This document shows, piece after piece, positions 3,001 through 22,035 of a DNA stretch of 64,000 bases. Source of the stretch: Aquimarina atlantica (GTDB lineage: Bacteria > Bacteroidota > Bacteroidia > Flavobacteriales > Flavobacteriaceae); contig NZ_AQRA01000014.1 in the NCBI RefSeq assembly GCF_000626715.1, positions 1 through 64,000 on the forward strand. Reading direction: 5' to 3'. Numbering within the stretch: the first letter of the stretch is position 1; every line of letters starts with the position of its first letter. The notes below the pieces were generated by a model, which worked only from the letters and a program-made list of their open reading frames with translations, was not told where the DNA came from and made no database searches. Both the position numbers and the translations under genes were made by a program.

Positions 3001-6000
3001 CCTATTACCTTAACTAGCATTGCCTTGACCAGTACAAATAATACGTATCAATGGTATAAAGACAATGTAGCAATCGCAGGAGCAACAGATAAGAATTTTG
3101 TAATCGCTTCTGCCAGTGAAGCAGATGCTGGGATTTATCATTTTACATCAACAAATAGTGTAGTTGCCGGACTAACATTAACACGTCATCAAGTAAAATT
3201 AGAAGTAGGTACCTCTTCTTGTGAAATATCGGCAGCAGAACGTCAGGCTTTAATCGATATCTATAATACTACGAATGGAGCTAATTGGGCTAATACTTTG
3301 TCAAATAACAAGCCCTGGTTAATCAATGATCCTAATTCTAAAGTATGCGATTGGTATGGAGTAAAGGTGACTAATGGAAAAGTAACCTCATTAAGGTTAG
3401 TAAACAATACCCTGGCAGGTAATATTCCTTCTTCTTTGTTTCAATTGGTTGGTCTGCAAGATGTTCAGCTTTCAGATAATCAGCTTACAGGGAAGATTCC
3501 TTTAGAATTACTAACCTTAATCAAGTTACAGACATTGAATTTAAGTAACAATCAATTAGAGGGAGAAATCCCCGAAAACATTGATCAATTATCAAATTTA
3601 GAGCATTTATTATTATCCAACAATAGTTTTATAGGGGGTATACCAAAATCATTAGGACAATTAATAAAACTCGAAGATCTTCAGTTAAATTCAAATCAAC
3701 TTACGGGTAGTATTCCAGAAGAGTTAGGAGGGTTGAGTAATTTAAGATCAATAGCAATATCTAATAACCAATTATCAGGTAACATTCCTGTTACATTTAC
3801 TCAATTAACCAAATTAGAGATATTTAAAATAGATAATAATCTATTTTCTGGTACCATCCCTACCGGATTGGATCAATTTGTTGGATTTAGAAACTTCGCC
3901 ATTTTTGATAATAAATTTATATTCTCAGAAATAGAACCTACGTTTACTGCTCTAAAAGCTAAACTAGGAGTAGGTTTTATTCATAACCCACAAGCTAAAG
4001 TTGATGAAATTGAATCTAGAACTGTTGTTGCTGGTTTGCAAGCAACTTTAACATCGAATATACTTACCAGTACGAATAATAGCTACCAATGGTATAAAGA
4101 TGGTGTAGCTATTCCGGGAGCTACTAATAAAGAATTAGTATTTAATGCTATTAGTGAAAGTGATGCGGGAGTTTATCATTTTACAGCAACCAATAGTATC
4201 GTAACAGAACTAACAATAGAACGTAATTCGATAACCATATCAATAGCTCCGGCTGATTCTTGTGGAGTATCGGCAGCAGAAAAGCAAGGACTAATAGATT
4301 TTTATAATACTACAAATGGAGCAGGATGGACCAATAATACAAATTGGTTATCGGCTACAGTTTCGGTTTGTGATTGGTATGGAGTTACCGTTGTAGATGG
4401 GAAAGTAACAGCTTTGTCATTACCAAAAAATAATGTAGCAGGAGAAATCCCTGCTTCAATTTCTCAGTTAATTAATCTTACCACATTACGACTAAATGAT
4501 AATAAATTATCAAGTGATATTCCATCTACTTTAGGAAAAGTATTAAGTCTGGAACATTTATATCTTTCCTGGAATCATTTAACAGGAGAAATCCCATCTG
4601 CTTTAGGAAAATTAAAAGGCTTAAAAACCTTAGAAGCAATGGGGAACCAACTTACAGGAAATATACCTGTAGAACTGGGTAATCTTACAAGTCTGGAAAG
4701 ACTTAGCTTGTATCGTAATCTATTAACAGGAACAATTCCTGTTGAGCTAAGTAACTTATTAAACTTGAGGTATCTTAGTCTAAGTGATAATCAATTATCA
4801 GGAAGTATTCCTGCATCATTAGGTAACCTTACTAAATTAGAAGAACTTAGTTTATTTAGAAACCAGCTTACAGAAAGTATTCCTGTTCAATTAGGACAAT
4901 TAAGCAGTTTAAAACACCTTTATTTAAATCATAATCAACTTACAGGAAGTATACCAGTGGAGTTTGGAGCATTAAGCAATCTTCAATTTTTATGGTTGAG
5001 TACTAATGAATTGACCAATACTATTCCTGCAGAATTAGGAAACCTAAGAAAATTACAAGATTTTAAAGCAAATGATAACCAACTCTCAGGAAGCATACCT
5101 ATTGCTTTAGGAAATGTATCAAGCCTTAAATACCTCGAATTAGCGAGAAACCAATTGTCTGGACCAATCCCAGTTCAATTTGGGCAATTAACAAATTTAC
5201 AGCAATTATATCTTAGTGATAATCAACTTTCGGGAAGAGTACCTACGGCATTAAGTCAGTTGACTAGTTTAAAACATCTGATGATTGATTCGAACAGATT
5301 TGTTTTTTGGAATGTAGAACCAGAATTTAATACTTACGTAACAAATCTTATTAGCTTTTTGTACATTCCTCAGGCAAAAGTTGATCTGGTAGAAAATCAT
5401 ACTATTTACACGGGTAAATCTATAACCTTTACCAGTAATGCACTTACAAGTACTAATAATAGTTATCAGTGGTATAAAAATAATATTGCAATACCAGGAG
5501 CAACAAATAAAGATTTAATAATAACCAGTGCAACTGCTGCTGACGCTGGAGTATATCATTTTACAGCTACGAATAGTGTTGTTACAGGATTAACTTTGGT
5601 ACGTAATTCTATCACCCTTTCTGTACTTGTGCCTAATTGGGATTCGACTCAATCTTTTTGTAGCTCTGAGAAAATTCCAACAATAAGTGATTTAGTATCT
5701 CCGATTCCTAATACACCAACAGTTACTTGGTATGAAACGCAAACAGGAGGAACAGCTTTAGTTGGATCTACAGAATTAGAAGCTATAGTATATTGGGCTG
5801 AAGGAAATTCAAGTGACCCTAGAGTAGGCGTAAAAGTAAACTTGAATGAAGGTGCTCCGGGAGTTGAAGAAGAAGGTTATCAGGCATTTTCAATAGTATC
5901 AAACTCTAAAATAAAAGACCTTAAGATCACAGGAACAAATATTAACTGGTATAGTACACCTACTGGAGGAATGCCTCTTGACATAAATACGGTATTAGAA

Positions 6001-7677
6001 GACGGAAAATCATATTTTGCGCAGCAAGGCTCTGTTAGCTGTAGATTTGAAGTTGTTGTTGCTGTAAAAGTATTTGAACCAGAAGGAGACGGATGGCAAT
6101 ATTTCTGTAAATCAACGGGTCCTACTATAGCTGATCTTGGGGCTAGATATACAATTTTAAGTGGCCATACATTGGTATGGTACAAAGCAGCTACCGGAAC
6201 AGAAACATATGTATCTACAGAAGGTTTGGTTGATAAAGGAGTATATTATTTAGTTCAGAGAGATGCATTAAATAATGAAAGTACCAGGAAAAGAATTACC
6301 GTTTCTATTTTTGATGTCCCTGCACCAATTGTAACCAATAAAAATCAGATTTTTTATACAAATGATCCAGTATATGTTTCAGATTTGGTAGCTACAGGAA
6401 ATAATATCCTATGGTATGATGCAGCTTTTGGAGGAACGGCATATAATCCTACAGAAAAACTTGTTGATGGAAGAACTTATTATGCAGCCCAAACAGATAT
6501 AAACTGTACACCAGGTGATATAGGTTGCTGTACAAGTACATTTAGAGAAGAAGTGACAGTAACAATAAGAGAAGAACTGCCACCTTCATTGATCGGATGC
6601 GAAAGATTTCGTCCTCAACCGGGAGAACGTTATGTAATAAGTGCGTGGGTGCGAGAAGATGGATTATTGGCAATTAACCCGGTAACCAGAAACTTTAGTG
6701 AAGTAAGTAATGTATTTACAGATTTATTAAATCATATTGTGAAAGACAAGGTTTTGGCCCCGGTAATAGCAGATAGGCATATCCCAGAAGTATATGTTCC
6801 AAAACCTGATACTCGCGAATTTGATGTATTAGTTCCTTTTATTAAAAATGCTGTGGATAAAAACTTAACCATATATGATTTTGAATATGTAAAAGAAAGA
6901 CAGAATGGAGTAGGACCAGAGAGAACGGTGGGATTTGAATTTTCATTGGTTCCGGGTAAAAAACATACACCTCAATTTAAATATAGAACACCAAATGTGA
7001 AAGGGTATAACTATCCCTATCCACTTCTAAATAATCCTACTCTTACTTTAAACTTTACTGGAACTTCTGTATGTGGTACTAAATTTTGTATGAATTCGTC
7101 TTTTAAAATTGATGGAGGATCATTGTCCTATAACAGAAATAATATTGTAAATACTAGTTATAGAACATCGGGAATGTTTTCTAATATTACTAAATATACC
7201 TACACTATAGATCCCGATTATCAGGCTATGGAATATGTAAATTCATTATTGCGATTACGATATCGAAATAAAGATGGAGTTGATATTATTCCTCAAAATA
7301 GAACAGATATAGAGTTTAAACCAAAGGGAGAGATAGTAGATGGTTGGCAAAGAGTTTCGGCTGATTTCACAATCCCTATAGACGCTACAAATATGCAGAT
7401 TCATTTAGAAAGCAATATTCAGGGAGATGGATTAGAGCAGCTAAACGTATATTTTGATGATGTGAGAATACATCCTTTTAAAGGTAATATGAAAACTTTT
7501 GTATATGATCCTATTACCCAAAGATTGAAATCAGAATTAGATGAAAACAATTATGCAACTTTTTATGAATATGATCAGGAAGGTGGTCTGATACGTGTCA
7601 AAAAAGAGACAGAAAGAGGAGTCTTTACCATTCAGGAAACACGTTCAGGAAACTCTAAACTTAATGGGCAGAAATAA
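1..7677 (+). CDS. Giant LRR / Ig-like repeat protein with YD-type C-terminal tail (5' partial)
   Basis: The window opens inside this gene. The GTG at position 4 falls in the end of an Ig-like domain and is not a credible start, so the true start lies upstream. The visible 2557 residues contain five super-repeats, each a cap with a CxVSAxE(K/R)Q motif and a C(D/N)WYGV motif, then plant-type leucine-rich repeats (LxxNxLxGxIP), then an Ig-like domain (YQWYK...DAGVYHF). Caps start near residues 22, 347, 780, 1075 and 1419. Around residues 1880-2200 there are three FC/WY-type Ig-like modules typical of flavobacterial surface proteins. Near 2445-2500 a carbohydrate-binding-like segment leads into a short YD-repeat-like tail (VYDPITQRL, FYEYDQEG). 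No type IX sorting domain is visible. It precedes a secreted protein and an RHS toxin on the same strand, which suggests a surface-exposed adhesion or delivery partner. The domain calls are firm; the function is inferred. Confidence 0.5.
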   Translation, partial: SVITDLTLTRNPITLSIGPADPCGVSAAERQALIDLYNSTNGANWTNTTANNQPWLINDPTSKVCDWYGVTVANDEVRGLSLTNNNLNGSIPTSIGNMPNLSSLYLNFNNLSGNIPTNIGTLSKLRYLYLNSNQLTGNIPAELGNLPDLLDLMLYSNKLTGSIPPELGNLSSLRDLNLLRNQLSGSIPPELGQLSASLFRINIAENYNLSGKIPSSLKNLSGLTTFRFNTNKFIFSDVEADFNDLNAKVNIFNYSPQAKVDQTQTLSVIKNGNITLTSTVLTSTNNSYQWYKDGVAITGATNKDLIISNATDADAGVYHFTATNSVVTGLTLTRNPITLSISPADGCGVSAVEKQALIDLYNSTNGANWTNNSNWLSVTVPVCDWYGVTVIDGKVIAVELVSNNLVGDIPAGINGLVNLIKLNLETNQLTGTIPVEMGQLANLEFLSLNQNDLYEEIPTELELLSKLRSLYLGHNKLTGTIPVSLSKLSNLRYLHLQGNKLSGEIPVALGILSNLTDLNLYSNALTGNIPVELGQLLNLKSLHLDNNQLSGSIPVTFGELLNLVDLNLYNNSLSGSIPEELGNLSKLQSLYIYNNQLSGGIPVTFGRLSNLKALDAHSNELTGGVPDAISELSNLESLWLQDNQLSGKIPSTLITLPKLQLVYLNDNQFVFSDLESEFNAYNLRLGSGFKYFPQGKVDLEEEQPVVLGDEIILGTKALTSSNNSYQWYKNGAAISGAINSTYKITAAKQSDAGVYHFEATNSIVHDLILERNPITLKVTSDVCSVSAREKQGLIDFYTQTGGAGWTTKTNWLTDTPVCNWYGVTVVNGKVTEVKLGNNNLTGSLSTSLIELTNLKQLDLSNNQLEGRIPVEIIQLTNLEQIILSDNNFIGNLPKELGQLTQLKNLQLNNNQLTGNIPVEYTQLTSLEELGISNNQLAGGIPSGFDQLVGFTKFAIFDNQFVFSEIEPAFIALQTKLAANFVYSPQAKVDQEEIISAAVGEPITLTSIALTSTNNTYQWYKDNVAIAGATDKNFVIASASEADAGIYHFTSTNSVVAGLTLTRHQVKLEVGTSSCEISAAERQALIDIYNTTNGANWANTLSNNKPWLINDPNSKVCDWYGVKVTNGKVTSLRLVNNTLAGNIPSSLFQLVGLQDVQLSDNQLTGKIPLELLTLIKLQTLNLSNNQLEGEIPENIDQLSNLEHLLLSNNSFIGGIPKSLGQLIKLEDLQLNSNQLTGSIPEELGGLSNLRSIAISNNQLSGNIPVTFTQLTKLEIFKIDNNLFSGTIPTGLDQFVGFRNFAIFDNKFIFSEIEPTFTALKAKLGVGFIHNPQAKVDEIESRTVVAGLQATLTSNILTSTNNSYQWYKDGVAIPGATNKELVFNAISESDAGVYHFTATNSIVTELTIERNSITISIAPADSCGVSAAEKQGLIDFYNTTNGAGWTNNTNWLSATVSVCDWYGVTVVDGKVTALSLPKNNVAGEIPASISQLINLTTLRLNDNKLSSDIPSTLGKVLSLEHLYLSWNHLTGEIPSALGKLKGLKTLEAMGNQLTGNIPVELGNLTSLERLSLYRNLLTGTIPVELSNLLNLRYLSLSDNQLSGSIPASLGNLTKLEELSLFRNQLTESIPVQLGQLSSLKHLYLNHNQLTGSIPVEFGALSNLQFLWLSTNELTNTIPAELGNLRKLQDFKANDNQLSGSIPIALGNVSSLKYLELARNQLSGPIPVQFGQLTNLQQLYLSDNQLSGRVPTALSQLTSLKHLMIDSNRFVFWNVEPEFNTYVTNLISFLYIPQAKVDLVENHTIYTGKSITFTSNALTSTNNSYQWYKNNIAIPGATNKDLIITSATAADAGVYHFTATNSVVTGLTLVRNSITLSVLVPNWDSTQSFCSSEKIPTISDLVSPIPNTPTVTWYETQTGGTALVGSTELEAIVYWAEGNSSDPRVGVKVNLNEGAPGVEEEGYQAFSIVSNSKIKDLKITGTNINWYSTPTGGMPLDINTVLEDGKSYFAQQGSVSCRFEVVVAVKVFEPEGDGWQYFCKSTGPTIADLGARYTILSGHTLVWYKAATGTETYVSTEGLVDKGVYYLVQRDALNNESTRKRITVSIFDVPAPIVTNKNQIFYTNDPVYVSDLVATGNNILWYDAAFGGTAYNPTEKLVDGRTYYAAQTDINCTPGDIGCCTSTFREEVTVTIREELPPSLIGCERFRPQPGERYVISAWVREDGLLAINPVTRNFSEVSNVFTDLLNHIVKDKVLAPVIADRHIPEVYVPKPDTREFDVLVPFIKNAVDKNLTIYDFEYVKERQNGVGPERTVGFEFSLVPGKKHTPQFKYRTPNVKGYNYPYPLLNNPTLTLNFTGTSVCGTKFCMNSSFKIDGGSLSYNRNNIVNTSYRTSGMFSNITKYTYTIDPDYQAMEYVNSLLRLRYRNKDGVDIIPQNRTDIEFKPKGEIVDGWQRVSADFTIPIDATNMQIHLESNIQGDGLEQLNVYFDDVRIHPFKGNMKTFVYDPITQRLKSELDENNYATFYEYDQEGGLIRVKKETERGVFTIQETRSGNSKLNGQK

Positions 7678-8486: not shown

Positions 8487-11400
8487 ATGAAGAATACGAA
8501 CACATATCTTAAGCTTTTTATCTTATTTTTTGTTATAACTTTTGGTTATAGCCAGGATAGATCAGAATATAATCCATCAGAAATTAGTAGTGCAATTACT
8601 TCTAATACTGCACTAGTATTTAGTCCGGATCTTGGATCATTAGCGAATACTACTACAGTTTCTGCAGCTACCAGTATAATTTTGAATGTAAATTCGGATC
8701 AGCCTCCATATGGTTGGTTTCGATATACAATACAACTGAATGTAACTCCTAGGTTGGCTAACGGAAATTTTGATGATGCAAATACATATCAGGTAGAATT
8801 ATCTGTAGAGCATAATGTGATTCCCGGATCAGGAAATAGTGGAGTCGATGTAAGAAAACATATTATAAAAGATAGGTATGGAGCTCGGATAGCTGTACAA
8901 CAAGGTACTTATGAAGATTTGGGAGCAGGTCAGTCACCAGATATCAATGGGTATATTCCCGAAAATATACGATTAGCGGCACAGTTAGATATAGAAAACT
9001 ATAAACAACTTTCAGATACAAGCCCTCTTCTTCAAGCAGTACATGATAACGTAAGAAACGAATTGACAGTAAAATGGCCTGTGATTGAAGGAGTGGATAA
9101 TTATCAATTAGAATGGACATGGATCGATAGTTATGGAGATACTTTTGAAACGACACGTACTCCAGACCTTATTAGGTTTAACACCAGAGATTTTGAACAA
9201 AACAGTACACGTGTTCAAACCATAAATAACGAATACAATATTCCGTTGATTTATAGCAAAGGGTATATTATTTATAGAGTAAGAGCTGTAGGCCGCTATC
9301 AAGAGAATGTATCTAAATATAAATATGGCAGATGGAGTAGTGGGACTAATGAGAAAACCACTGTTGCGAGTTGGCCAGATGTCTATCAAGTAACAGAAGA
9401 TCATGAAACTGGAAAAAACTGGCAGTTTCAGGCAAGTTATGCAGAAGAAGGCAAGAAAAAAGAAGTGGTGAGCTATTTTGATGGTACGTTACGAAACCGT
9501 CAGACCGTTACAAAAATCAATTCAGACGATAATACTATTATAGGCGAAGTGATTTATGACGCACAAGGTCGTCCTGCAATAGAAGTATTACCAGTTCCCA
9601 CAACACAAAAACAAATAGGGTATGTTAGAGATTTTAATCAAAGTACCTTACAACCAGGGACACCATATGATTATAAAGATTTTGATCTGAACAGTCAAAA
9701 TGTTTTGGATCAACCGACTGCAGAAAAAGCAATGGCTACTGCAAATGGAGCAAGTAAATACTATTCTGCAGCAAATGATACTAATGGTGATTTTAGAGAT
9801 CGGATACCTGATGCAGAGGGACATCCATTCTCTCAGATCGAATATATGCCTGATAACACAGGACGTATACGAAGAAAAAGTGGTGTAGGAGTTACTCATC
9901 AATTGGGTAGTGGTCAGGAGATGGAGTATTATTATGGTACCCCAGAGCAGAAAGAATTAAACCGCTTGTTTGGTTATAGTGTAGGGAATAAAGCACATTA
10001 TAAAAAGAATATGGTAATTGACCCTAATGGCCAGGCGAGTATTAGTTATATCGACCCTCAGGGCAGAACTATTGCTACTGCTTTATCAGGGTATTCACCG
10101 CAGAATCTGATAGGACTTCCTGATGAGGCCGATGCTAGCGGATTACATAAAGAGCTAAACGTTGATCTGTTGGGTAAGTTATCCAGAGATGCCAAAGACA
10201 CTAACACCGATAATAATATAAAAACTGCTACACAAAACTATGGAGCATCAGAAGATGCCTTAGAATATGCAGGAACTAAAGTTTCTCCTTTTGAAGAAAA
10301 CAGAACGTTTAACTATACAGTTGCTAATGATCCGTTTTTTGAATATGCCTGTACTACCACAAATAATGTACAATATCCGTTAGTATATGACCTGGCTATT
10401 AATGTATTAGATATAGATGGGAATTCTCTAATGACGGTGCCGGTAAAAGAAAAAATAGATTTAAGTAAAGGAACTCCAGGAACATTTGTATTACCAGAAT
10501 TTGTAGCACCAGTAAAGAGAGGAAGTTACAGCATTACCAAAAGTTTGGTGGTGAGTAGAGAAGCTTTAGAAGAGTATGCAGATGCATATGTAAAAAAACT
10601 TCAGGATAAAAACGATGCTTGTTATATCAGCCCCGAAGAGGTAACGAATTTACCCGTATTAAGTTTTGAAGGTTGTTTTGTGACTTGCAAAGAATGTGAG
10701 GATGCTTTAGTTGCAGATTATGGAGGAAGAGCTTCTTATGTAACTACTCAGGTAGCCAATTATGATTATTCAAAATTGGATTACCTGTCTGCTACAGAAT
10801 TAGCCAATGAAAAGATAAGATTGGGCGATGTGTTTGGTATCCAATGGGATGCTTTGGTAAGAGCTTGTAATGCACCATGTGCAGATGGTACTATTGATAC
10901 AGGTGATACCACAGAGGATATCGTAGCCAATTCAATTAGTTGTGGTATAGCAGCATCAGCATTGCTTAATGATATGAAACCATTGGGACAGTATGGTGCA
11001 TATACAGCAAATATATATAATAACCAAGCTTCAGGAGCATCTACTTCTGCAAATAATGCTAAGCTGAATATTTATAATGAAGCAAATGAATTGTATAGCG
11101 CCAAAACTTCTTCGGGAGTATTTAATAGCTGGCGTAATCCTCGCCATGCAAAATATGATGCCGCACCAAGCGGAACAGGAGTATACACAAAAGGACACTA
11201 TTATAATGAAGAAGGTACCATAAGTTATGTAAAAATAAAACAAACGATTACTATTACCACTACTGATGCTGGAGAGGTGCAAGAAGAGATTAGCTATGCT
11301 CCAGCATTACAAGAAGGTGCTGTTATTATAGAAAAGCCAGGCGATCCAGAGTTTGTGTATGTAGAGCCGCAATACCTCGCTAATGTATCAGATTTTCTAA

Positions 11401-14400
11401 GTGATGACATCTGGCAAGAGCAATGGGCAGAATCATTGATTGTATATCATCCCGAATACTGCTACCTCGAATATGCAAATGCCGTTTGCGAAGTCACAGC
11501 AACAGTTAGTGGAGCTAAAATGAATTCTGATGGATTTGATATGTATCTGCAATCAGTTAAAACATTTGCAGATGCAAAAACAGCAGGTTTACTAGGAACT
11601 TTAGAAACGTTATCAAGTAGAGACCCTTATTTTTCGAGTGTTATCCCAAGAGTAGAAAACACAACCTCTCAAGGAGCACGAAAGGATATTATTAGAGAAT
11701 CTCTTACCCAGAATTACAATGGCAGTGATAAGAATGTAATGGAGTTTACTTTGGGAACTCTGGTATGTAACAGTATCTCGAGTTGTGATTTGGGATTAGG
11801 AGCCAATCCAACAGCAGGGGCTATTGTAGCTAAGGTAGATACATTTACCGATGTTGCTAAAAAAGATCAGTTCTGGAATACGTATAAAGCTAATTATGCC
11901 ACTGCCAAGCAAACGATCCAAAGTTTATTTGGTAATATTTATGCTATAAACAAAGGATGTTATAACGGCTGTATAGGTACACAGGCACCACCCACTACTT
12001 TGCTTACCGTACTATCCAACTATAGTACTACTGTAAATAATAAAGTAGAAGGATTAATTACAGGTACAGCTAATGGATTGTGTAAAGATGTACATGTAGC
12101 ACAATATGAGAAAAAAGAAAAACGCTTTAAACCATCTGATAATTTATACAACTCGGGGGATAATTCCAGAGATATTTATGATGACCTGGCAAACTTTACC
12201 AATTATGAGTATTATGTAGCAACAGGTGTATGTCCCAAGGCCAGGGATTTAGAGATGTACCTTACCTATTATTTTAAGGAATATAGTTCAGGGATTAGTA
12301 CCTCCAATGCCTATACAGGTGCTTATCTGAGTCCGGCATTATTTACTGATTTAGGAGGAGAACACCCCACAGATGTTGCTATTACTGTAAAAAATGCAAA
12401 GATAAATGGTGATAGAACGTTACAGATTCGATTTAACCAAAATAATCAGGATGTTGGCGATATTCCGATTGAAGTAAACTTACCGTCAGCATCGGTTTTT
12501 GGGAAGACATGGAATGACTATCGTGCATCCGACTGGATGATTACCAATATTAAACAAATCTATCCTAGTTATGATAGCACCGCCAAAGTATTTAAATATA
12601 GCCTGGTGGCCGAGGTGCGTATAGGTACCGGTAGTACTGCCACTACCCAGGAGATTATTTTAACAGGTACTACTCAGGCTCGAATTTCTAATTGTAGTAT
12701 TACTGATGCCGATGGAATAGGGGAATATATTGGTGATGGTAGCGGTACAGATATCTCTGGGTGTAATAATACCTCTCGTTTTGAAACAGCATTACGTAAC
12801 CTGTTATATGAACTCGAAACGAACAATACCATCAATAATGCTAGTGTAGCTCTGAATGGTTTAGAATCCTATACCGGGATGTATCTTGATACATTTTTTG
12901 GTGGAGGCACTGCTGTTTGGAAAACAGGCCCTGTAGGCACGTATACGATAGAAGTAGCTGGAGTAACCAAATTTACAATGGTATTGGAGAATGCTTTAGA
13001 CGCAGCAACCATAAAAATTATTACAGGAGCCAATGTAAACTATACCTATACAGATACGGGAGAGATTAAGGAACAACAATTAAATATTACCTATCGCGAA
13101 GCAGATCATTTTCCTAAGGTAGTAACCGCCAAGTTGTATGAATCTTGTGATACCACAACAGGTAAATGCAGATTGATTAACCTGTTATGTTGTGGGGATA
13201 TTAATGATTTGGTAGGGGATGATCTTACAGAAGTAGTTGCTTGTCCTGATCAGGCAGATGGAGAAAAGTTGTTAGAGAATCATATGTTACAAGTCCTAAA
13301 TGATGGAATAACTAATGTTGCAGAGAGTACTTCTTTTACCACTTACAGTTCTGCTATCATCAATGAATTTAAAACAGCAGCAAAACTTAAGGATCGTTTT
13401 AAAGCAGATATTGCCTCATCGACGAATGCGAATGAGACTTTTGATATTTCGATTACTCAGATCAAACACACGTCTTCTAGTGCAGGAAAATTTGAAATTA
13501 GATTCTCTGGTAGCGAAGATGTGTTTGCCAAAGCGGCTATTATTGCAGTTGATTTTTCAACATTTGATACTACATCTTCAGCAATTACAGAAATAGTATC
13601 GTTCGATATTCGTGAGTTTAAGGAGATAGGCGGTGGTGGATTAGATCTCCCTACTCCTGTGGCTTTAGTTCGAATAACCTATAAAAATGAGTTAGGTATC
13701 ATACAAACTAGAGATGTAAGCCTTTCTATTAGATATATAACTCCAGGTTTAGAATTACCAGAATATACCAGAGATTATTGCAAATTCTTTGAAGAACCTC
13801 CTGTGGGTCCAGTTTGTATAGATACCGATTCAACTCTACAGCAGTTTATTAAAGATTTCCTTCCATTGGTTAATGAGTTTTTTGCAGAAAACACAGTTTT
13901 AGAGAATACCCAAGAACTACTTGTTTCTGCGAAGACTTTACAAAATTACAATCAATTTCTTCAGGAATTCTTTACATTAAATAGTGGAAAATCCTGTTAC
14001 CATAATAGAAGTTGTATTGATAATGCTGCTGTAGATTTTGCGAATTTGGATCAAATTAAAATTGGTGTTATAAGATCATATAGTTCAGGCAGGATATATC
14101 ATAGATTTGTTGTGCAGTTTTCTGATATTCATTTCTTTATGTTTAATCTTCTTGATGCTAATGTCATTAATGGTTTGGAAAGAATGATTTCAATGGATCC
14201 TATAAAATATAATAATAATAATACCCATCCATTGTATTATTTTTCTACAAAATATATAGTTAACGGTAACGAAGTTACAAGTGATATGTATAATATTCAA
14301 TCTAGATGGAATATTCATAATTATCAGGGTTCCCCTTACACATATGGTTTACTTTTTAAGTGTTCATTATATGATAATTATGGTAATCTTCCTATACAAG

Positions 14401-17400
14401 AAAACCCAGAAATGATTGATAATAATGATGCTGATGCCTGTTCGGAAAATATTATTGAAGAGAATACATTTGAAAATCAATTAAAAATTATTTTTAATAG
14501 AGCAGTCAGTCAAGTAAAAAATGATGGGATTACTGATGATGTTTTTGAAATAGATTTTAACAATCAAGAAATAACAAACAATTTTGAGATTCAAACTGGT
14601 TTTAATAGAAAAATGAAACTATTAAACAGTACTTCAAATACTGATAATTCTTATGGAATTTTTAATGGAAAATTAAAAATCAGTTATAGGAGAGTTCTTG
14701 CAACTCAAACCGCGTTTTGGAACCAAAATTTTGGAAACTTTTATTTTGAGTTTATTACGGAAGATACTAACGGTATTGAGACCGGAAGAAATCAAATTCG
14801 GATAAGGTTTGAAGATGATTTTCCTTCAATTTTCGAAATTGGATCAATTTCTGAAATAATGATTCTGAGAAATCAATTTATGACTGTTAGATACATCGAT
14901 AATTTGGGTAATTCGAAAATCGCTAAAAATATTCCAATTCAATTCTTTAGAACAGGTTTTTCAGGAGATGGATTGAGTGAAGATTTTTGTACATTATTTG
15001 GATCAGGTGTAGTATCTACTTTGACAAATCAATCAAGAAATACTTTGTTTGCAGAAAAATCCGCCACTGTTATCGCAGACGAAACCATACCTTGTGGTCC
15101 TAGCGTTTGTATCCCACCAGTGGTGCCTCCTGTAAGTTGTACAGAGAAGTATACTACCTATACCACAGTAATGAACGGTATCGCAGATAAAGAAGAAGGA
15201 GATGTGGTATCAGAAGAGGAATTTTGTAAAAACTCTTTGCAATACCTGGTTGATGATTATAAGTATTACCTCACCAAATTCGGAATTACCTCGACCTTAG
15301 ATCTGCATTATATGTCTATGGCTCGTTTTGGAGCTACCGAGTTTAATTTTGGATATCCTGGTATGCGACAAGCGTACAAAGGTAAGCCAGCTATTATCGA
15401 TTTGTATTTTACACATACGAGTGGTAGTGGTACAATAAAAACCTGGGCGGCATTTACCACAGATTATCTTAATCAACCGGGGAACGAAGATATCTGCGTA
15501 CCTAGAGCATTCCCTACAGATTTTAGTGATGTTACTATAGAGGTGCCAGACGATACAGATTGCGAACAATTTGTAAAAAGTGTACGCGCAGCATATACCA
15601 GAGATGCTTACGAAAGTTTTATCACGATCAAACGAGAAGAATTTGTTAAAGGATATATCAAAAAAGCAATCGATGATGCCGTAGAGACCTTTGATATGAA
15701 GTATTTTGATAAAGAATATCAATATACCTTGTATTATTACGATCAGTCGGGGAACCTGTTACAAACCGTTCCTCCAGAAGGTGTCGACCGTTTTACCAAT
15801 GCAGAACTAATGGCAACGAATACATCGGGGATAACACTTAATGATCAGATCAATCAACATCGGGCAAATAACATTGCCACAGAAAGTACAAACCTCTTGC
15901 CAAATCATGAGTTGCTTACGCAATATCGTTACAATTCTCTTAACCAGCTGGTATGGCAAAAAACACCAGATGGGGGCATTACACGCTTTGCTTATGATAA
16001 ATTGGGTAGGATTATAGCTTCTCAAAATGCAAAACAACGTATTAATAACAGATTTAGCTATACTACCTATGATGAGTTGGGTAGAATCACTGAAGCGGGA
16101 GAACTCATACCAGATACTGCGATCAGTATTAATGATACTACGGGTAAATTAGTATATACTAGTGGTGGTAACGAAGTTCCTGCACGGGTAGAGGATAATT
16201 ACCCCGTTAATATAGCTGCAAATCGAGTAGAAGTAACCCGTACACGATATAATGATTTACAAATCGCAGCAACAGAGATTTTTGAGACGGTGCTGGATGC
16301 AGATAATTATGCAAGCACGACTCGTAATCGTGTATCTGCAATTTATTACTACGATACCTATGGTTCTGGTACCATAGAGCGCCAATATAACCATGCGATT
16401 TTCTATACCTACGATATCCACGGTAATGTAAAAGAACTGGTACAGCATAATAAGCAAATGGCATTAACGCTAGATGATCCTACCTCGGGTATGAAACGCA
16501 CCCGGTATGCCTATGACTTGATTAGTGGTAACGTAAATACAGTAACCTATCAAAAAGGGAAGCCAGATCAGTTTATCCATAAGTATCAATATGATGCAGA
16601 TAACCGTATTGTTAATGTACAAACTTCTGATCAAGGAATGATCTGGGAACAGGATGCCAGCTATCAATACTTTGCGCATGGCCCACTGGCCAGGACAGTA
16701 CTTGGGGATAAGAAAGTACAGGGGATGGATTATGCATACACCTTACAAGGATGGCTAAAAGGAGTGAACTCAGAAAACCTAAGCCCGGATACCGATATGG
16801 GAGGAGATGGAGCCAATGGTGCTACCGTAGCCAAAGATGCTATGGGGTATTCTCTAAGTTACTATACCGGTGATTATAAATCTGTAGGTACGACCAATGC
16901 GACCTCTTTTGCGTATAGCAATACCTCTGGACTACAAAGCAGTAAAAACCTATATAATGGTAATATCAAGCAGATGGTGACCAGCCTGATTGATAATAAT
17001 GAGTCTATGCTCGCATCACAGAGCAACCATTATGAGTATGACCAGCTTAACCGTATTAAGGCTATGCAAAGTAATAAGGTGGTTGGTACTACGGCTAGTC
17101 CTACCTATAATACCAGTTATAGTTATGACAATAATGGTAATTTAAAAACCTTACAACGATCTGCAGTAAATAGCCAGGGTACGGTAGTAAATATGGATGA
17201 CCTTACCTATACGTATAAAAAGGTTACTGATCCCGATACGGGGTTACAAAAACGCTCTAACCAGTTAGGGCATGTAGATGATGCCATTACAGGTAGTTCG
17301 TTTAATGACCTCGAAGATCAGAATCCTAATAACTATGAGTATGATGCTATAGGACAACTGATTTCTGATAAAAAAGAAGGAATTACCAATATCGAGTGGC

Positions 17401-18929
17401 GCGTAGATGGCAAAGTAAAACAGATTACTAAAAGTAATGGTACGACCATAAGCTTTGCTTATGATGGTCTGGGAAATCGTATTTCTAAAACAGTACTACC
17501 AGAAAACAAAACCACGTTGTATGCACGCGATGCACAGGGGAATACAATGGGCGTATACGAAGCCAATACCAGTGGATCTGTCGCTACCGATATGCGTTTA
17601 CGCGAGCATCATATCTATGGTAGTAGTCGATTAGGGTTAGAAGAAAAAAACATACTGCTCACAACTACAGATACACCAGCTACCATTACTTTTAGTAATA
17701 CTGTAGGAGATAAGCGATATGAGTTAAGTAACCATTTAGGTAATATAATGAGTGTAGTAAGCGACCGTAAGAATGCAGTTACTACAGGAAATTTAACTAC
17801 CTTTACCCCAGACGTTCTTACATTTAGTGATTACTATCCTTTTGGGATGTTATTACCTAATAGGCATGGGAACTCTGGAGATTACAGATATGGTTTCCAG
17901 GGACAGGAAATGGATAACGAAGTTAAAGGAGAAGGGAATTCTGTAAACTACAAATATAGAATGCATGATCCAAGGGTTGGTAGGTTCTTTGTGGTGGATC
18001 CTTTATTTAAAGAATATCCTTGGAACTCTGTTTATGCCTTTAGCGAGAATAGGGTGATACACATGGTAGAATTAGAAGGTTTAGAATCTGTTTTTTCTGA
18101 AGAGTTTTGGTGGAAGGTTGGTACAAAACTTTCAATAATTGATGTTAATCATCCTAAAAATAATCCTCATAGCTTTAGAGCAAGAGATCCTTTGGGGTGG
18201 GAACTTGAAAATGCTCCAAGCCACACAGCTAATAGGCCGACAAAAAATATAACAGGTAATTATCTTTTTGATGCAGCTTTGATGTTAGGAGGGTATGATA
18301 CATTCAGACGAGCATACAAAGGTGACCGTAAAGCTCAAGCACAAGTTATAATGGGAACAATTTTATCTTTTGATGGTATCCCTGAACAGAGTTTTCTTGC
18401 TAATGGATTTAGACGTGGTGGTATCAGAAATCGAATAGGGGGAAATCTTGAAAAATACCTTACAAGATCAGAATTCGCATTATCTACTAAAAGAGCTCAA
18501 ACGTTGAGTAGACAAATAAATAAACTTGGAGGTAAGAGTAACTGTTTGCTTTGCGCTTCAGAAGCCCATGCTTCTGCTTTAGGAGAATTTTTTGAATCCG
18601 CCAAAATAGTAAAAAATCCAGCAGGATTAACTTTTGAAGAGGCAAATTCATTCTTGAAAACTAGATTTAAAAATGTGTCAAGTGAAGTAATGAATTTGGG
18701 GTCTATGATTAATGATTTGAATAGTTTTATACCAGAGAGTCGAGGAGCTGCAATAATTATTGGAAAATTTAATACACCTTTGCCTGATGGGGCGACTCAT
18801 CATGCTCTTAATGCAGTTAAAAGAGATGGAAAATGGTATTTTGAAGATTATCAGTCAGGTAAATCTTATACTCAATATTACATTAAAAAGACATTTTCTT
18901 CTATGAAGATGATTGATGCACACAATTAA
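8487..18929 (+). CDS. Giant YD-repeat/RHS polymorphic toxin with papain-like C-terminal domain
   Basis: A 3480-residue secreted protein. The signal peptide is residues 1-22 (ends FGYSQ). A DUF6443-like N-terminal region of Bacteroidota RHS proteins lies roughly at 295-535 ([16 protein letters not shown]). A long middle of repeated Cys-containing modules spans about 600-2400. YD repeats run from about 2410 to 3005 (YDKLGRI, YDELGRI, YDNNGNL, YDGLGNR). The RHS core is at about 3130-3200 ([27 protein letters not shown]). As known for polymorphic toxins, the conserved core is followed by a variable effector tip, here about 280 residues with a papain-like catalytic set (C3353, H3439, D3454). The RHS shell is expected to enclose the toxin until delivery. 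The next gene starts 9 bases after this stop, as immunity genes do. Base composition drops at the tip and in an internal segment near 13.8-15.06 kb. The exact target of the tip is unknown. Confidence 0.5.
18070..18929 (+). other. Variable toxin tip: papain-fold (Tox-PL-like) domain
   Basis: This marks the part of the RHS protein downstream of the conserved core (about residues 3195-3480). The last 130 residues show a papain-like layout: N3352-C3353 followed by LLC (C3356) and a helix-like stretch; H3438-H3439 in HHALNAV followed by a beta hairpin ([10 protein letters not shown]); and D3454-x-Q3456. This Cys, His, Asp-x-Gln order matches Tox-PL/papain-like deamidase or protease toxins described in bacterial polymorphic toxins and some type III effectors. 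Known members act by deamidating Gln or cleaving host or competitor proteins; which of these applies here cannot be told. The tip has a lower GC feel than the RHS core, consistent with module swapping. Confidence 0.5.
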
Positions 18930-18938
18930 TATTAAAAA

Positions 18939-19574
18939 ATGGAAAGAATTAATAATGATTTTTATAGTAAACTTATAAAAAAAGAGTTTCCAGATGAAAA
19001 CTTTAAATATTATAAAATTTATACTTTAGATGACTCTATATACGTATTCTTCTGTTATCATAAATTATTTTATCCATTAGGTCATGATTTGTTTTGGCAT
19101 GTTCTTAATCGAGGGCCTATATTGATTGATGATATTAGTACACCAAAATATAAACTTTTAACATATCAGGAATTTATGTCTGATCATTTTGAAATACTCA
19201 AGCAAGAATTAGATAATGAGTTTATTTTTTTAGAAAGCTTTGATTTTTCAGATAAAACCTATGAATTTGTTGTTGATGTGATTAAGGAAAGAAGATATAT
19301 AGATATATCAGATGTTAAACCTATTGCTGTTTTTAACAATTTGGATGAATCTAAAATTAGATTTAACAGTCCAAATTTTAATAAAGAACTCCCTCGCACT
19401 TCTGATGATGAATTAACACTGTATCTTTATGATGAGCTTTCGTTGGAATGCTATTTGAAATTAGCAAAAGATGTTGGATTAAGGTATCAGATAGAAAAAA
19501 AAGATTTTATTATCTTAAGAATAGATAGACATTTAGAAGATGTAAATCCAGATAATTGCCTTAGCTCATCCTAG
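18939..19574 (+). CDS. Candidate immunity protein for the adjacent RHS toxin
   Basis: A 211-residue protein without signal peptide or membrane segment, hence probably cytoplasmic, and rich in acidic and aromatic residues. I recognise no family. It begins 9 bases after the toxin stop codon, with an A-rich stretch before the ATG. It shares the low-GC, AT-rich codon use of the toxin tip (many TTT, AAT, GAT codons). Position and composition are what is expected of the cognate immunity gene in a polymorphic-toxin locus. It is followed by a short direct repeat, REP-like palindromes and a terminator, so the toxin transcription unit probably ends there. The immunity role is inferred from context only. 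Confidence 0.5.
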   Translation: MERINNDFYSKLIKKEFPDENFKYYKIYTLDDSIYVFFCYHKLFYPLGHDLFWHVLNRGPILIDDISTPKYKLLTYQEFMSDHFEILKQELDNEFIFLESFDFSDKTYEFVVDVIKERRYIDISDVKPIAVFNNLDESKIRFNSPNFNKELPRTSDDELTLYLYDELSLECYLKLAKDVGLRYQIEKKDFIILRIDRHLEDVNPDNCLSSS

Positions 19575-19591
19575 TATGCCGTAAAAGCTAG

Positions 19592-19612
19592 TGCTAGTTT
19601 GTGCCTTAAATC
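19592..19612 (+). repeat. Direct repeat, copy A (tgctagtttgtgcct core)
   Basis: A 21-base sequence starting TGCTAGTTTGTGCCT and ending AAATC, 18 bp after the immunity gene stop. A second copy at 21145-21165 matches at 20 of 21 bases (T/A at one position), also shortly after a gene end. Both copies are followed about 100-30 bp later by near-identical terminators. Confidence 0.5.
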
Positions 19613-19670
19613 GTGCCGTATCAGCTGTCTCGTCTTAAAAAAAGTTTACATATTTATACTTAACCCGATA

Positions 19671-19691
19671 GCGCGGATTTATAATCCGTGC
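19671..19691. repeat. REP-like palindrome
   Basis: An inverted repeat with 9-bp arms (GCGCGGATT / AATCCGTGC, one G-T wobble) around the loop TAT. It is GC-rich in an AT-rich surrounding. Compact palindromes of this form are typical of REP elements mobilised by IS200-like RAYT transposases in Bacteroidota; no transposase is present here. A damaged relative with arms CACGA/TCGTG lies at 19945-19962. Confidence 0.5.
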
Positions 19692-19726
19692 GGTTAATAA
19701 AATCAGAGACATAGATAATGTAAGAT

Positions 19727-19760
19727 AAAAGCTACTTTTTATAGTAGCTTTTGTTGTTTT
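19727..19760 (+). terminator. Rho-independent terminator after the toxin/immunity unit
   Basis: Perfect 10-bp stem AAAAGCTACT / AGTAGCTTTT (19727-19736, 19743-19752) with a 6-base loop, followed by GTTGTTTT. Stem, flanking AAGAT and tail recur almost exactly at 21195-21230, so this terminator belongs to a duplicated block. Confidence 0.5.
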
Positions 19761-19944
19761 AAGCAAAGGAGTGATAATGCTCCCGATACATCTTTGGCAA
19801 GTAGATTCTGGTATACTAAGAAAATGCTATCCATATCATAGATAAGTGCATACCCTCAAAATACATAATTATTGTAAAAAAATATTTCCCAGTTCCGAAA
19901 AATGAAACTGAGAGCTACTATTATTGCATCAGCAATTGTAATAA

Positions 19945-19962
19945 CACGAATTTATAATCGTG
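19945..19962. repeat. Decayed REP-like palindrome
   Basis: CACGA, then ATTTATAA, then TCGTG. The layout matches the palindrome at 19671-19691 apart from lost G/C bases in the stem, suggesting an old, mutated copy. Confidence is low because the remaining stem is only 5 bp. Confidence 0.5.
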
Positions 19963-20259
19963 CTATTATAATTCGAAGGATATCCACTGTTAGCGCTCGT
20001 CTGTGACGGGTGCCATATCAGATTGGTTTATGAGTAAGAGTAATAAAATAGGTAATATAATATAAGAGCTTCCTTATACCATGTGAAAATAAAAAGAAGG
20101 AAATATTGAAAACATAAGAAACAAAAGATTCAGGCTAATTATTAGCAAGTTCATGTTAATGTAGTTTCATAAAAATCAGAATAATAATAAAACATGGTCT
20201 TTTTTAGGATTATATAAGATAAATATTGTAAAATTTTAAACAACAAATAAGAATAAAAG

Positions 20260-21108
20260 ATGAGTAGAGTATTAAAGTACATAGGAGCAGTATTGATTCA
20301 GGTTTTAGTATTTCAATCCTGTAGTAAGGATGATAGCAGTAATGAGCTTGAAAATCAGGACGTACCAACGCTAAGTGTTAAAGATTTTACATTGACGCGT
20401 GGGGAGGCCAATTATAGCCCTTCGATAGGTAAGATAGAAACGATCTCTAACCAAAAAGATATAGTGTATAAATTAATATCTCAAGAACCAGAAGGAGCAT
20501 TGAGTATCGATACAGAAAGTGGAGATTTAAAAGTAGGAGATATATCTTATTTTGATTATGAGTTTTTTCCAGTACTAACAGGAGAAGTTGAAGTGTCCGC
20601 AGGGGGTCTTACAAAAAAGGTTTCAGTAACGATTACTTTAACAGACGAAGAGGAATCAGGATCTAAGGTTTTTAGATATCAAAATGAGTCTTATAGTTTA
20701 AAAACGTATAAAGAGAGAACTTTTGGAAGAATAGAAATACTGTCTTCAGGTGTTGAATATGGCTCAGGAAGTCAAGGTCTTAGAGGTAAGGGTAATGTAT
20801 TGCGTTTTTCTATTATTGATAAGCTAAATAATATATCAGAAGGAGTAGTGCATACTTTTACTAAGAAAGATATTGATAATGATTATGTTGGTATTGCAAT
20901 TGATCACGATTTTGATGCAGATAGTAGTATGCCGAGTTCAGGTACCAAAAACATCACAGAAGCAAAGATACTTTATAAGAAGAAGCATAATGATTTTTAT
21001 GATCCGAATGCCAATTATTATATATTCAATGTGCATTTTATGTTCAAGTTTTCAGATAATACCACGCTAACAGGAACATATAATGGAGGAGGAAGTGAGG
21101 CTCGTTAA
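20260..21108 (+). CDS. Surface lipoprotein with cadherin-like domain
   Basis: A 282-residue lipoprotein. The signal sequence ends in the lipobox VFQSC, followed by SKDDSSNE, a Ser/Asp-rich tail of the kind that directs Bacteroidota lipoproteins to the cell surface. Residues about 35-130 resemble cadherin-like or Ig-like repeats (AxYSPSIGKIETIS, GALSIDTESGDLKVGD, VSVTITLTD). The C-terminal half is a beta-rich domain of unknown family with a DHDFDAD segment that could bind Ca2+. It stands alone between two copies of a direct-repeat/terminator block, so it behaves like a cassette. Function is unknown; adhesion or polysaccharide binding is a guess. Confidence 0.5.
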   Translation: MSRVLKYIGAVLIQVLVFQSCSKDDSSNELENQDVPTLSVKDFTLTRGEANYSPSIGKIETISNQKDIVYKLISQEPEGALSIDTESGDLKVGDISYFDYEFFPVLTGEVEVSAGGLTKKVSVTITLTDEEESGSKVFRYQNESYSLKTYKERTFGRIEILSSGVEYGSGSQGLRGKGNVLRFSIIDKLNNISEGVVHTFTKKDIDNDYVGIAIDHDFDADSSMPSSGTKNITEAKILYKKKHNDFYDPNANYYIFNVHFMFKFSDNTTLTGTYNGGGSEAR

Positions 21109-21144
21109 AAAGTTGCTTTCAGCTCAGCGAAGAGTGATCACTAC

Positions 21145-21165
21145 TGCTAGTTTGTGCCTAAAATC
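21145..21165 (+). repeat. Direct repeat, copy B
   Basis: Matches copy A at 19592-19612 at 20 of 21 positions. It lies 36 bp after the lipoprotein stop codon. The two copies are 1.55 kb apart in the same orientation and bracket the lipoprotein gene. Confidence 0.5.
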
Positions 21166-21194
21166 CGAGAGGAAATAAAAGAAGATAATAAGAT

Positions 21195-21230
21195 AAAAGC
21201 TACTGTAACAAGTAGCTTTTGTTGTTTTAA
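21195..21230 (+). terminator. Rho-independent terminator after the lipoprotein gene
   Basis: Perfect 10-bp stem AAAAGCTACT / AGTAGCTTTT (21195-21204, 21211-21220), loop GTAACA, tail GTTGTTTTAA. The stem and tail are identical to those at 19727-19760; only the loop differs. Confidence 0.5.
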
Positions 21231-21417
21231 TAAAAGTAATGATGATGAGATTTCTTACTACTATCAAGAATCTCAAATTATTCTGTGGCATGATATATGT
21301 TATGTTAAAAACAGTAGTCCTATTAAGTCAACTTTTAAAATAATAGCAAATCAATATTGTTAGAGTTTTGAAAACAGCTTATGAAATTATAAATTTGAAC
21401 ACCTAAAATAATTTGCC

Positions 21418-22035
21418 ATGATCTACAAAATAAACATACAGAACCTAAAGAAAATAGTACTTATGCTAGTGATGTCTTGCTTTTTTATGCAAGCGAATGC
21501 ACAAAATGAACTCATTTCTATACAACCTATTAGTGATCAGGAGTTTGAAGTAAGAAGCCTTAATGGTATACCTTTTACGATAGTTTTGGAAGAAAGTAAT
21601 AATGATGGACAATTTCATTTAGGAATTAATAACAGTCTTACTTTTAAGACTGGTGATCTGATTGGTAAAAGAAGTACCCTTAGGATTGTATTCGAGGATG
21701 AATTATATCACTCTTTAGAGAATAAATTGATTAAGCAATACCAAACAGATTTGCAATGGATTGAAAACTTACTCGGAGTTAAAGAAGGAGAATTTAAAAA
21801 ATTACCTTCCCGCCCTGTCTTTACTGATAATGGTTTAGAGAAATTAAAAGGGACAGTATTTGAGTATGTTAACACTGATAAAAAAGAAGAAGACTTCTAT
21901 AAATGGATAGAAAAAATAAACTATTCTGTTGGCGCAGTGAAATATTTTAGAGATTTATATGCTGCATCTAATGGTGAAAATAATGAGCAGAGACGTCATT
22001 TTTTACCAATTAATATATACGACGCACTTCAATAA
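21418..22035 (+). CDS. Secreted protein of unknown function
   Basis: A 205-residue protein with a signal peptide (lysines at 4 and 11-12, hydrophobic core, likely cut after QANA before Q). The mature part has a beta-rich N-terminal section and a helical C-terminal section ending RRHFLPINIYDALQ. No lipobox, membrane helix after the signal, or recognised family. It is followed by a strong terminator at 22070, so it appears to be a single-gene unit. Exported location is well supported; function cannot be assigned. Confidence 0.5.
   Translation: MIYKINIQNLKKIVLMLVMSCFFMQANAQNELISIQPISDQEFEVRSLNGIPFTIVLEESNNDGQFHLGINNSLTFKTGDLIGKRSTLRIVFEDELYHSLENKLIKQYQTDLQWIENLLGVKEGEFKKLPSRPVFTDNGLEKLKGTVFEYVNTDKKEEDFYKWIEKINYSVGAVKYFRDLYAASNGENNEQRRHFLPINIYDALQ

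Follow-up and report, generated by a model that had tools for sequence, protein, structure and literature searches.

The Shigella glutamine deamidase OspI is a free effector acting on host Ubc13, and we know of no RHS shell or immunity gene that accompanies it. In the excerpt available of its published description, the residues singled out are C62, H145 and D160, together with N61, Q162 and a C62-C65 disulfide, and the target is a host protein (PMC3636029). A second point of reference is the Tox-PL1 family (PF15644, papain fold toxin 1), for which Zhang and co-workers described a conserved NC-H-DxQ signature and an occurrence in Bacteroidetes and Actinobacteria (PMC3482391, in excerpt). According to the text of that excerpt, the immunity family Imm35 accompanies no toxin but Tox-PL1; the tables of the paper, however, pair Imm35 with Ntox40 as well and list a conserved W and [ST] for it (PMC3482391). 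A third system, Cpe1-Cpi1, likewise joins a papain-fold toxin to an adjoining immunity gene, on RHS, VgrG, PAAR or CdiA carriers; by its partial description, however, Cpe1 stands apart from the protein considered here, being structurally aligned with the ComA and LahT peptidases and cutting GyrB and ParE (PMC12136450).

Here we describe a locus of Aquimarina atlantica contained in a stretch of 64,000 nucleotides, positions 1 to 64,000 of contig NZ_AQRA01000014.1, which we call the window. With good confidence, we read it as the exchangeable end of an RHS polymorphic toxin from the Bacteroidota, occupied by a putative toxin-immunity cassette that is made up of a PL1-type tip and a two-part immunity protein. 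Systems of this kind, i.e., an RHS toxin with a Tox-PL1 tip and Imm35-type immunity, are already known. What appears to be new, as judged from sequence comparison, is a two-part immunity variant lying outside the Pfam and NCBIfam models, of which the C-terminal half alone would be undescribed. A search of the open-access literature on Tox-PL1, Imm35, PF15644 and PF15567 retrieved no experimental study of a Tox-PL1 tip, of Imm35 or of a pair of the two, which is no proof that none exists.

The RHS gene and its exchanged end

The RHS protein presents, in this order, a signal-peptide-like start, DUF6443, RHS/YD repeats, the Rhs core and a variable C-terminal tip (Table 1), the repeats and the core thus standing ahead of a variable end as in other RHS polymorphic toxins. 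The end of the core had been placed near residue 3200, in good agreement with the TIGR03696 match, which spans residues 3116-3199. Relatives of the backbone were found at 66 loci of named genomes, the closest being that of Aquimarina sp. Aq78 (83% identity across query residues 16-183). By eye, the C-terminal ends at these 66 loci are mostly unlike one another, with five running off the contig and a few repeats among them. Two of the tips carried by the same backbone (L049 and L056) have a common W-H-K/A...D-R-x-T-G-like end, and each is followed by a 110-aa gene, the two genes being alike by eye; perhaps they constitute another small toxin-immunity type. Upstream of the RHS gene, positions 4-7677 encode a protein of 2557 aa in which leucine-rich repeats and immunoglobulin-like domains are numerous.

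The limits of the exchanged part are given by comparison with another genome of the genus (G019), which carries the same RHS gene and, at the same site, another PL1 tip and another immunity gene between common flanks. DNA identity between the window and G019 is 88% at 15049-18390, ends there, and resumes at 19829-21238 (94%) and 21280-22031 (89%). Because identity stops at 18390 and returns at 19829, we delimit the cassette as 18391-19828 and the tip as residues 3302-3480. Tip and downstream gene have thus been swapped jointly on a conserved backbone. The original prediction described a low-GC codon use common to the tip and the 211-aa gene; this is partly right, since GC drops from 0.393 in the backbone (15049-18390) to 0.334 in the tip and further to 0.259 in the gene behind it.

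Behind the immunity gene, a segment at 19588-19779 has a further copy at 21141-21247, behind a 282-aa gene and with a terminator-like hairpin, and G019 has a single copy in the compared stretch; this duplicated flank segment would fit a recombination scar. In addition, within the RHS gene, positions 13224-15048 (about residues 1580-2188) are unlike G019 at the DNA level, although both flanks match. GC there is 0.307 overall and dips to 0.26, and the shell may have in this stretch another portion that is open to exchange.

Table 1. Features of the RHS gene, its tip and the adjoining gene, with positions in the window
Feature	Position	Strand	Basis
RHS polymorphic toxin gene, 3480 aa	8487..18929	+	ORF call, TIGR03696, YD repeats, PF05593, PF20041
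Signal-peptide-like N-terminus, residues 1-23	8487..8555	+	By-eye reading of translation
RHS-associated core, residues 3116-3199	17832..18083	+	TIGR03696 33.4 bits, cut-off 32.5
Post-core linker, residues 3200-3301, part of the common backbone	18084..18389	+	Matches G019 as far as 18390 at 86-88% DNA identity
Variable tip, Tox-PL1/Gln_amidase-like papain-fold domain (putative), residues 3302-3480	18390..18929	+	Profile and tblastn comparisons
N3352-C3353-L-L-C3356, candidate catalytic cysteine and second cysteine	18540..18554	+	Compared with OspI N61, C62, C65
H3439, candidate catalytic histidine	18801..18803	+	Alignment
D3454-x-Q3456	18846..18854	+	Alignment
Candidate immunity gene, 211 aa, extended Imm35-like group	18939..19574	+	ORF call, profile comparisons
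Immunity protein N-terminal half, about residues 1-95, Imm35-like at group level	18939..19223	+	Profile-profile, group level only
Immunity protein C-terminal half, about residues 96-211, no known family	19224..19571	+	Imm35 E 0.32
Exchanged cassette: tip, immunity gene and about 250 bases	18391..19828	+	Absent from G019; flanks common
Partial extra copy of segment also at 21141-21247	19588..19779	.	One copy in compared stretch of G019

The tip in relation to Tox-PL1 and OspI

Scanned in isolation, the tip has only two Pfam matches, both below the cut-off and both to glutamine-deamidase models: PF15644, with 17.7 bits (E 0.008) against a cut-off of 24.1, and the OspI model PF21435, at E 0.02 (0.24 in another search). 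An NCBIfam scan gave no call for the tip, no relative of it was found among 5.8 billion proteins searched at lengths of 0.55-1.75 times the query, and a single-sequence structure model, with a pLDDT of 37.2, was too poor to speak for or against a papain fold. In turn, a tblastn search of 72,556 plasmid records retrieved two Streptomyces proteins matching 83% of the tip at 28% identity (E 5e-5 and 5e-4), and the C-terminal parts of both exceed the PF15644 cut-off, with 38.0 and 27.8 bits against 24.1.

Profile comparisons point in the same direction. When L087 and L088, members called by Pfam's own model, were compared with a profile of three tips, hhalign gave E 9.3e-5, the best of 100 shuffles being 0.015; in an hmmsearch with the profile of L087 and L088 only, the window tip ranked second of 70 (E 0.013, best decoy 0.061), the 70 being four related tips and 66 decoys, five of which run off the contig before the tip. 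These two comparisons, like the immunity tests with reduced sets reported below, leave out the rows found with the window. Broader profiles gave stronger values that lean towards the window: with four members passing the cut-off, including L089 and L090, which were found with the window tip itself, the tip ranked first of 70 (E 2.5e-9, best decoy 0.48), and with an 11-sequence tip profile that also takes in sequences found with the window it scored E 8.3e-10, or 7.4e-9 by hhalign against 0.023 for the best of 60 shuffles. Throughout, each hhalign E-value refers to one comparison, and all decoys are relatives of the window's RHS backbone rather than a random protein sample. L006 and L007, which came up with the first tip profile and which we take to be transglutaminase-like proteins, were dropped after reading as another family with a similar H-W-D pattern.

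C3353, H3439 and D3454-x-Q3456 do stand in the translated 3480-aa ORF at the places given by the original prediction, whose list missed C3356, the second cysteine that gives an NCxxC motif. Among 15 aligned tips, the window's included, N3345, C3353, H3439, N3442, D3454 and Q3456 are identical in all, N3352 is kept in 14, and C3356 is present in nine and missing in six. Because six letters are identical in 15 of 15 tips, the motif is not a product of chance. The window tip thus has N-C-x-x-C, H and D-x-Q in common with OspI (PF21435, PDB 3B21), at nearly equal spacing: 86 residues from C to H and 15 from H to D, the corresponding distances being 83 and 15 by the OspI positions in the excerpt cited (PMC3636029).

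On the grounds of the profile and tblastn links, the conserved letters, the OspI spacing and the published NC-H-DxQ signature, which is present in the window tip, we take the tip as a putative divergent Tox-PL1/Gln_amidase (PF15644) papain-fold domain short of the Pfam cut-off. The papain-fold, Tox-PL-type assignment of the original prediction is in this sense upheld, through the link to PF15644 members that pass the cut-off and the kept signature; the direct comparison with the Pfam profile that it proposed remained under threshold (17.7 against 24.1 bits), and it is the homology to those members that speaks in its favor. In common with Tox-PL1, moreover, the tip is the last domain of an RHS protein and its relatives adjoin an Imm35-type gene; it differs in its lower score and in grouping with L003, L004 and L138 on its own side of a branch.

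A separate matter is the reaction. The tip could be a true peptidase instead of a deamidase, killing by cutting an essential protein, a reading that concerns the reaction only and that we regard as possible, though doubtful. Indeed, in the accessible part of the original description Tox-PL1 counts as a peptidase and a possible role in peptidase inhibition is given to Imm35 (PMC3482391), a review, by its excerpt, considers that PF15644 members of toxin systems could be either a releasing peptidase or a poison (PMC10318531), and the excerpt on Cpe1 provides the precedent of a papain-like protease serving as antibacterial toxin by cutting GyrB and ParE (PMC12136450). Against this reading, the whole OspI set of N-C-x-x-C, H and D-x-Q is kept in the window tip, and the sole two Pfam matches, subthreshold as they are, concern glutamine-deamidase models. 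Because the OspI residue set is complete, glutamine deamidation would be somewhat more likely than proteolysis.

The adjoining gene in relation to Imm35

The 211-aa gene begins nine bases past the RHS stop, as had been stated. No Pfam or NCBIfam model fits its product, and a structure model was of low confidence. Two weak matches were discarded as chance and were not repeated in the scanned group members: VMAP-M14 for the window protein (E 0.0078, 16.5 bits, cut-off 27) and Drt3a for P0003 (18.9 bits, cut-off 200). In the 5.8 billion proteins, the 211-aa query retrieved itself and two relatives, 62% and 41% identical; the window subfamily consists of the window protein, P0002 and P0003, the last two lying on contigs of 1696 and 907 bases, respectively.

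Further relatives came from genome searches, in which the strongest places were read and weaker ones were left out: G018 and G016, the two weakest of six places in one search, G236 and G301 in another, and the seven weakest matches of a third (E 0.0096-0.092). In a search with 21 places, the window and 11 others were read, nine weaker ones were left out, and G374 was dropped for several stops. Within the genus (66 genomes in the set searched), PL1 tip relatives are found in G019, G038 and G459, and the genes behind them encode 184, 181 and 176 aa, respectively. The G459 gene stands directly behind the G459 tip, and each of the two was found by a separate search with no G459 row in the query. 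Behind the G038 toxin, at 12031-14173 of L092, there are four tandem genes of the extended type, one of them shorter and devoid of an inner stretch.

By hhalign, the window subfamily of three aligns with the eight other members of the group over 173 columns at E 6.3e-7, against 0.019 for the best of 60 shuffles. The window protein alone matches the group at E 3.9e-5, against 0.019 for the best of 52 other downstream genes, these decoys deriving from the 66 backbone loci, which contributed 57 toxin ends and, for 52 of them, an ORF downstream. The profile of the eight takes in sequences found with the window and thus leans towards it. The link is weaker when restricted to the five tip-linked members (E 4.6e-4, a figure given without shuffle controls); with three orphans it is 7.3e-5.

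As for Imm35 (PF15567), the N-terminal half of the extended group matches it at E 2.3e-6, the best of 60 shuffles being 0.026 and tip profiles used as decoys giving 0.15-0.6. The C-terminal half gave no match to Imm35 (E 0.32). The eight members without the window subfamily match at 3.5e-5, the group without G038 and the orphans at 0.0075, and the window subfamily alone at 0.075. Pfam's own Imm35 model is not listed at E up to 1 for the window protein, nor for eight group members. Among 58 single sequences compared with a 17-sequence Imm35 profile, P0003 and one G038 gene ranked first and second and the window protein 13th; with a 13-sequence profile, no extended member stood above the best decoy. 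Imm35 kinship is therefore likely for the extended group, and the window protein would have it only via the group, because its subfamily alone reaches 0.075, the protein itself ranks 13th of 58 and the reduced group falls to 0.0075.

These same values leave some room for a reading in which the 211-aa protein provides immunity through a fold that has no kinship with Imm35, its likeness being due to chance: the subfamily alone gives only 0.075, the window protein and P0002 as single sequences fall below decoys, and the predicted model is of low confidence. We consider it unlikely, given that the subfamily joins the other eight at E 6.3e-7, that those eight reach Imm35 at 3.5e-5 without it, and that the alignments place the same R-G-P/G-x-G-P stretch on the G-N-x-P of Imm35.

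We thus assign the gene next to the tip to a two-part group, members of which also stand behind related tips and are probably Imm35-like in their N-terminal half. It shares with Imm35 the association with Tox-PL1 toxins and, for the N-terminal half of the group, an alignment at the profile level; it differs in that the short genes behind PL1 tips have 92-119 aa, while the window protein has 211 aa, an extra C-terminal half and no Pfam call. The earlier statement that the immunity gene is of no recognised family, and the proposed comparison with all immunity families, can be appraised accordingly: no Pfam or NCBIfam model calls the protein, but relatives exist behind the nearest PL1 tips of three other genomes, and the resemblance of their N-terminal half to Imm35, probable as it is, appears at the level of the group profile only.

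Pairing across loci and proposed mode of action

The surroundings of 16 PL1-type tips were read, the window's included, and 15 of them are directly followed by an Imm35-like or an extended Imm35-like gene; the exception is the prophage-like PF15644 protein L147, with no such neighbor among the ORFs listed. The 11 PL1 tips outside the extended group (nine from the order and two from Streptomyces) each have a short gene at most 41 bases downstream. A profile from a 13-locus reference scores all 11 short genes between E 7.5e-32 and 1.7e-4, with the best decoy at 0.0092; the reference was drawn with Pfam's Imm35 model, only five of its loci pass the cut-off, and some are tandem neighbors of the L145, L146 and L148 toxins. 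All four tips of the group nearest to the window's carry the extended type. In a tree of 15 tips, a branch with 82/90 support, present in 87% of 200 bootstrap trees, has these four on one side and the others across it, L003 having a long branch and an unsure place. Because the four share one side, the tree suggests that toxin type and immunity type would have changed together. The window gene itself adjoins a Tox-PL1-type tip and, with such a neighbor next door in 15 of 16 cases, it is likely to be the immunity gene of the tip, as originally proposed.

In five effectors of about 760-880 aa (L144, L145, L146, L148 and L149), the PL1-like tip is more divergent and has no second cysteine; between one and three Imm35-like genes come after it.

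Genes of the extended type were found at 11 loci, counting the G038 row as one: four behind PL1 tips, two in an array of G337 and five away from any recognised toxin (G015, G026, C1:649341-649892 of this genome, G418 and G068). The original prediction had counted homologues repeatedly found away from RHS genes as evidence against the pair; they do occur in the broad group, at five of the 11 loci, the close subfamily being judged from the window locus alone. Polymorphic toxin systems commonly include orphan immunity genes, but the five could also have another function. The copy in the window's genome is a free-standing 182-aa relative at 2345-2893 on the minus strand of L141 (G000:C1:647000-655000), with neighbors as in G026. 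The G337 array (L160, G337:C30:1-14500) consists of RHS tail fragments and small genes, including the two extended-type relatives, and has no recognised PL1 tip; it looks like a store of exchanged cassettes.

The pairing also bears on what the tip would act upon. OspI, the best-studied relative, hits a host protein, by the excerpt cited (PMC3636029), and extended-type relatives are found alone as well, so one could imagine that the tip is directed at eukaryotic cells, like OspI, and that the downstream gene is not its immunity gene. This we hold to be quite improbable: a eukaryote-directed effector would have no need of an immunity gene, 15 of the 16 tips read have an Imm35-like or extended gene behind them, and at one site tip and gene are swapped jointly. 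Even less probable is that the tip is an auto-processing peptidase, itself no toxin, that frees the RHS shell or another toxin. Such is the role thought, in the accessible part of the family's description, for internal Tox-PL1 domains of other proteins (PMC3482391); the window tip, on the contrary, is the last domain, lies in the exchanged part and is followed by an immunity-type gene.

Under the preferred reading of a toxin with its immunity protein, the RHS protein would be exported via its putative signal peptide and, by what holds for the family, the shell would carry the tip. After entry into a rival bacterium, the Cys-His-Asp site would attack a target protein there, at a side-chain amide or at a peptide bond; an attack on an amide bond is what would be expected of an active site that is intact. 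By analogy with the OspI C62-C65 disulfide, C3356 might hold C3353 in a disulfide until the tip meets a reducing cytosol, which is a guess, because C3356 is missing in six of the 15 tips. In the cell that makes the toxin, and in its kin, the 211-aa protein would bind and block the tip.

A plausible though tentative extension is that an Imm35-like core acquired the C-terminal half, as a new immunity module, while one PL1 clade was diverging, toxin and inhibitor being rebuilt together, and that the free-standing copies, one of them in this genome, guard against the tips of neighbors. Cassette exchange at the end of the conserved backbone would give related strains different tips with matching immunity, and the window and G019, which come from two species, differ at one site by a clean exchange of tip and immunity gene. 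The pair and its sister cassettes in three related genomes constitute a set suited to telling deamidation from proteolysis and to probing what the second cysteine does. Furthermore, the pair suggests how an immunity family may grow as its toxin diverges.
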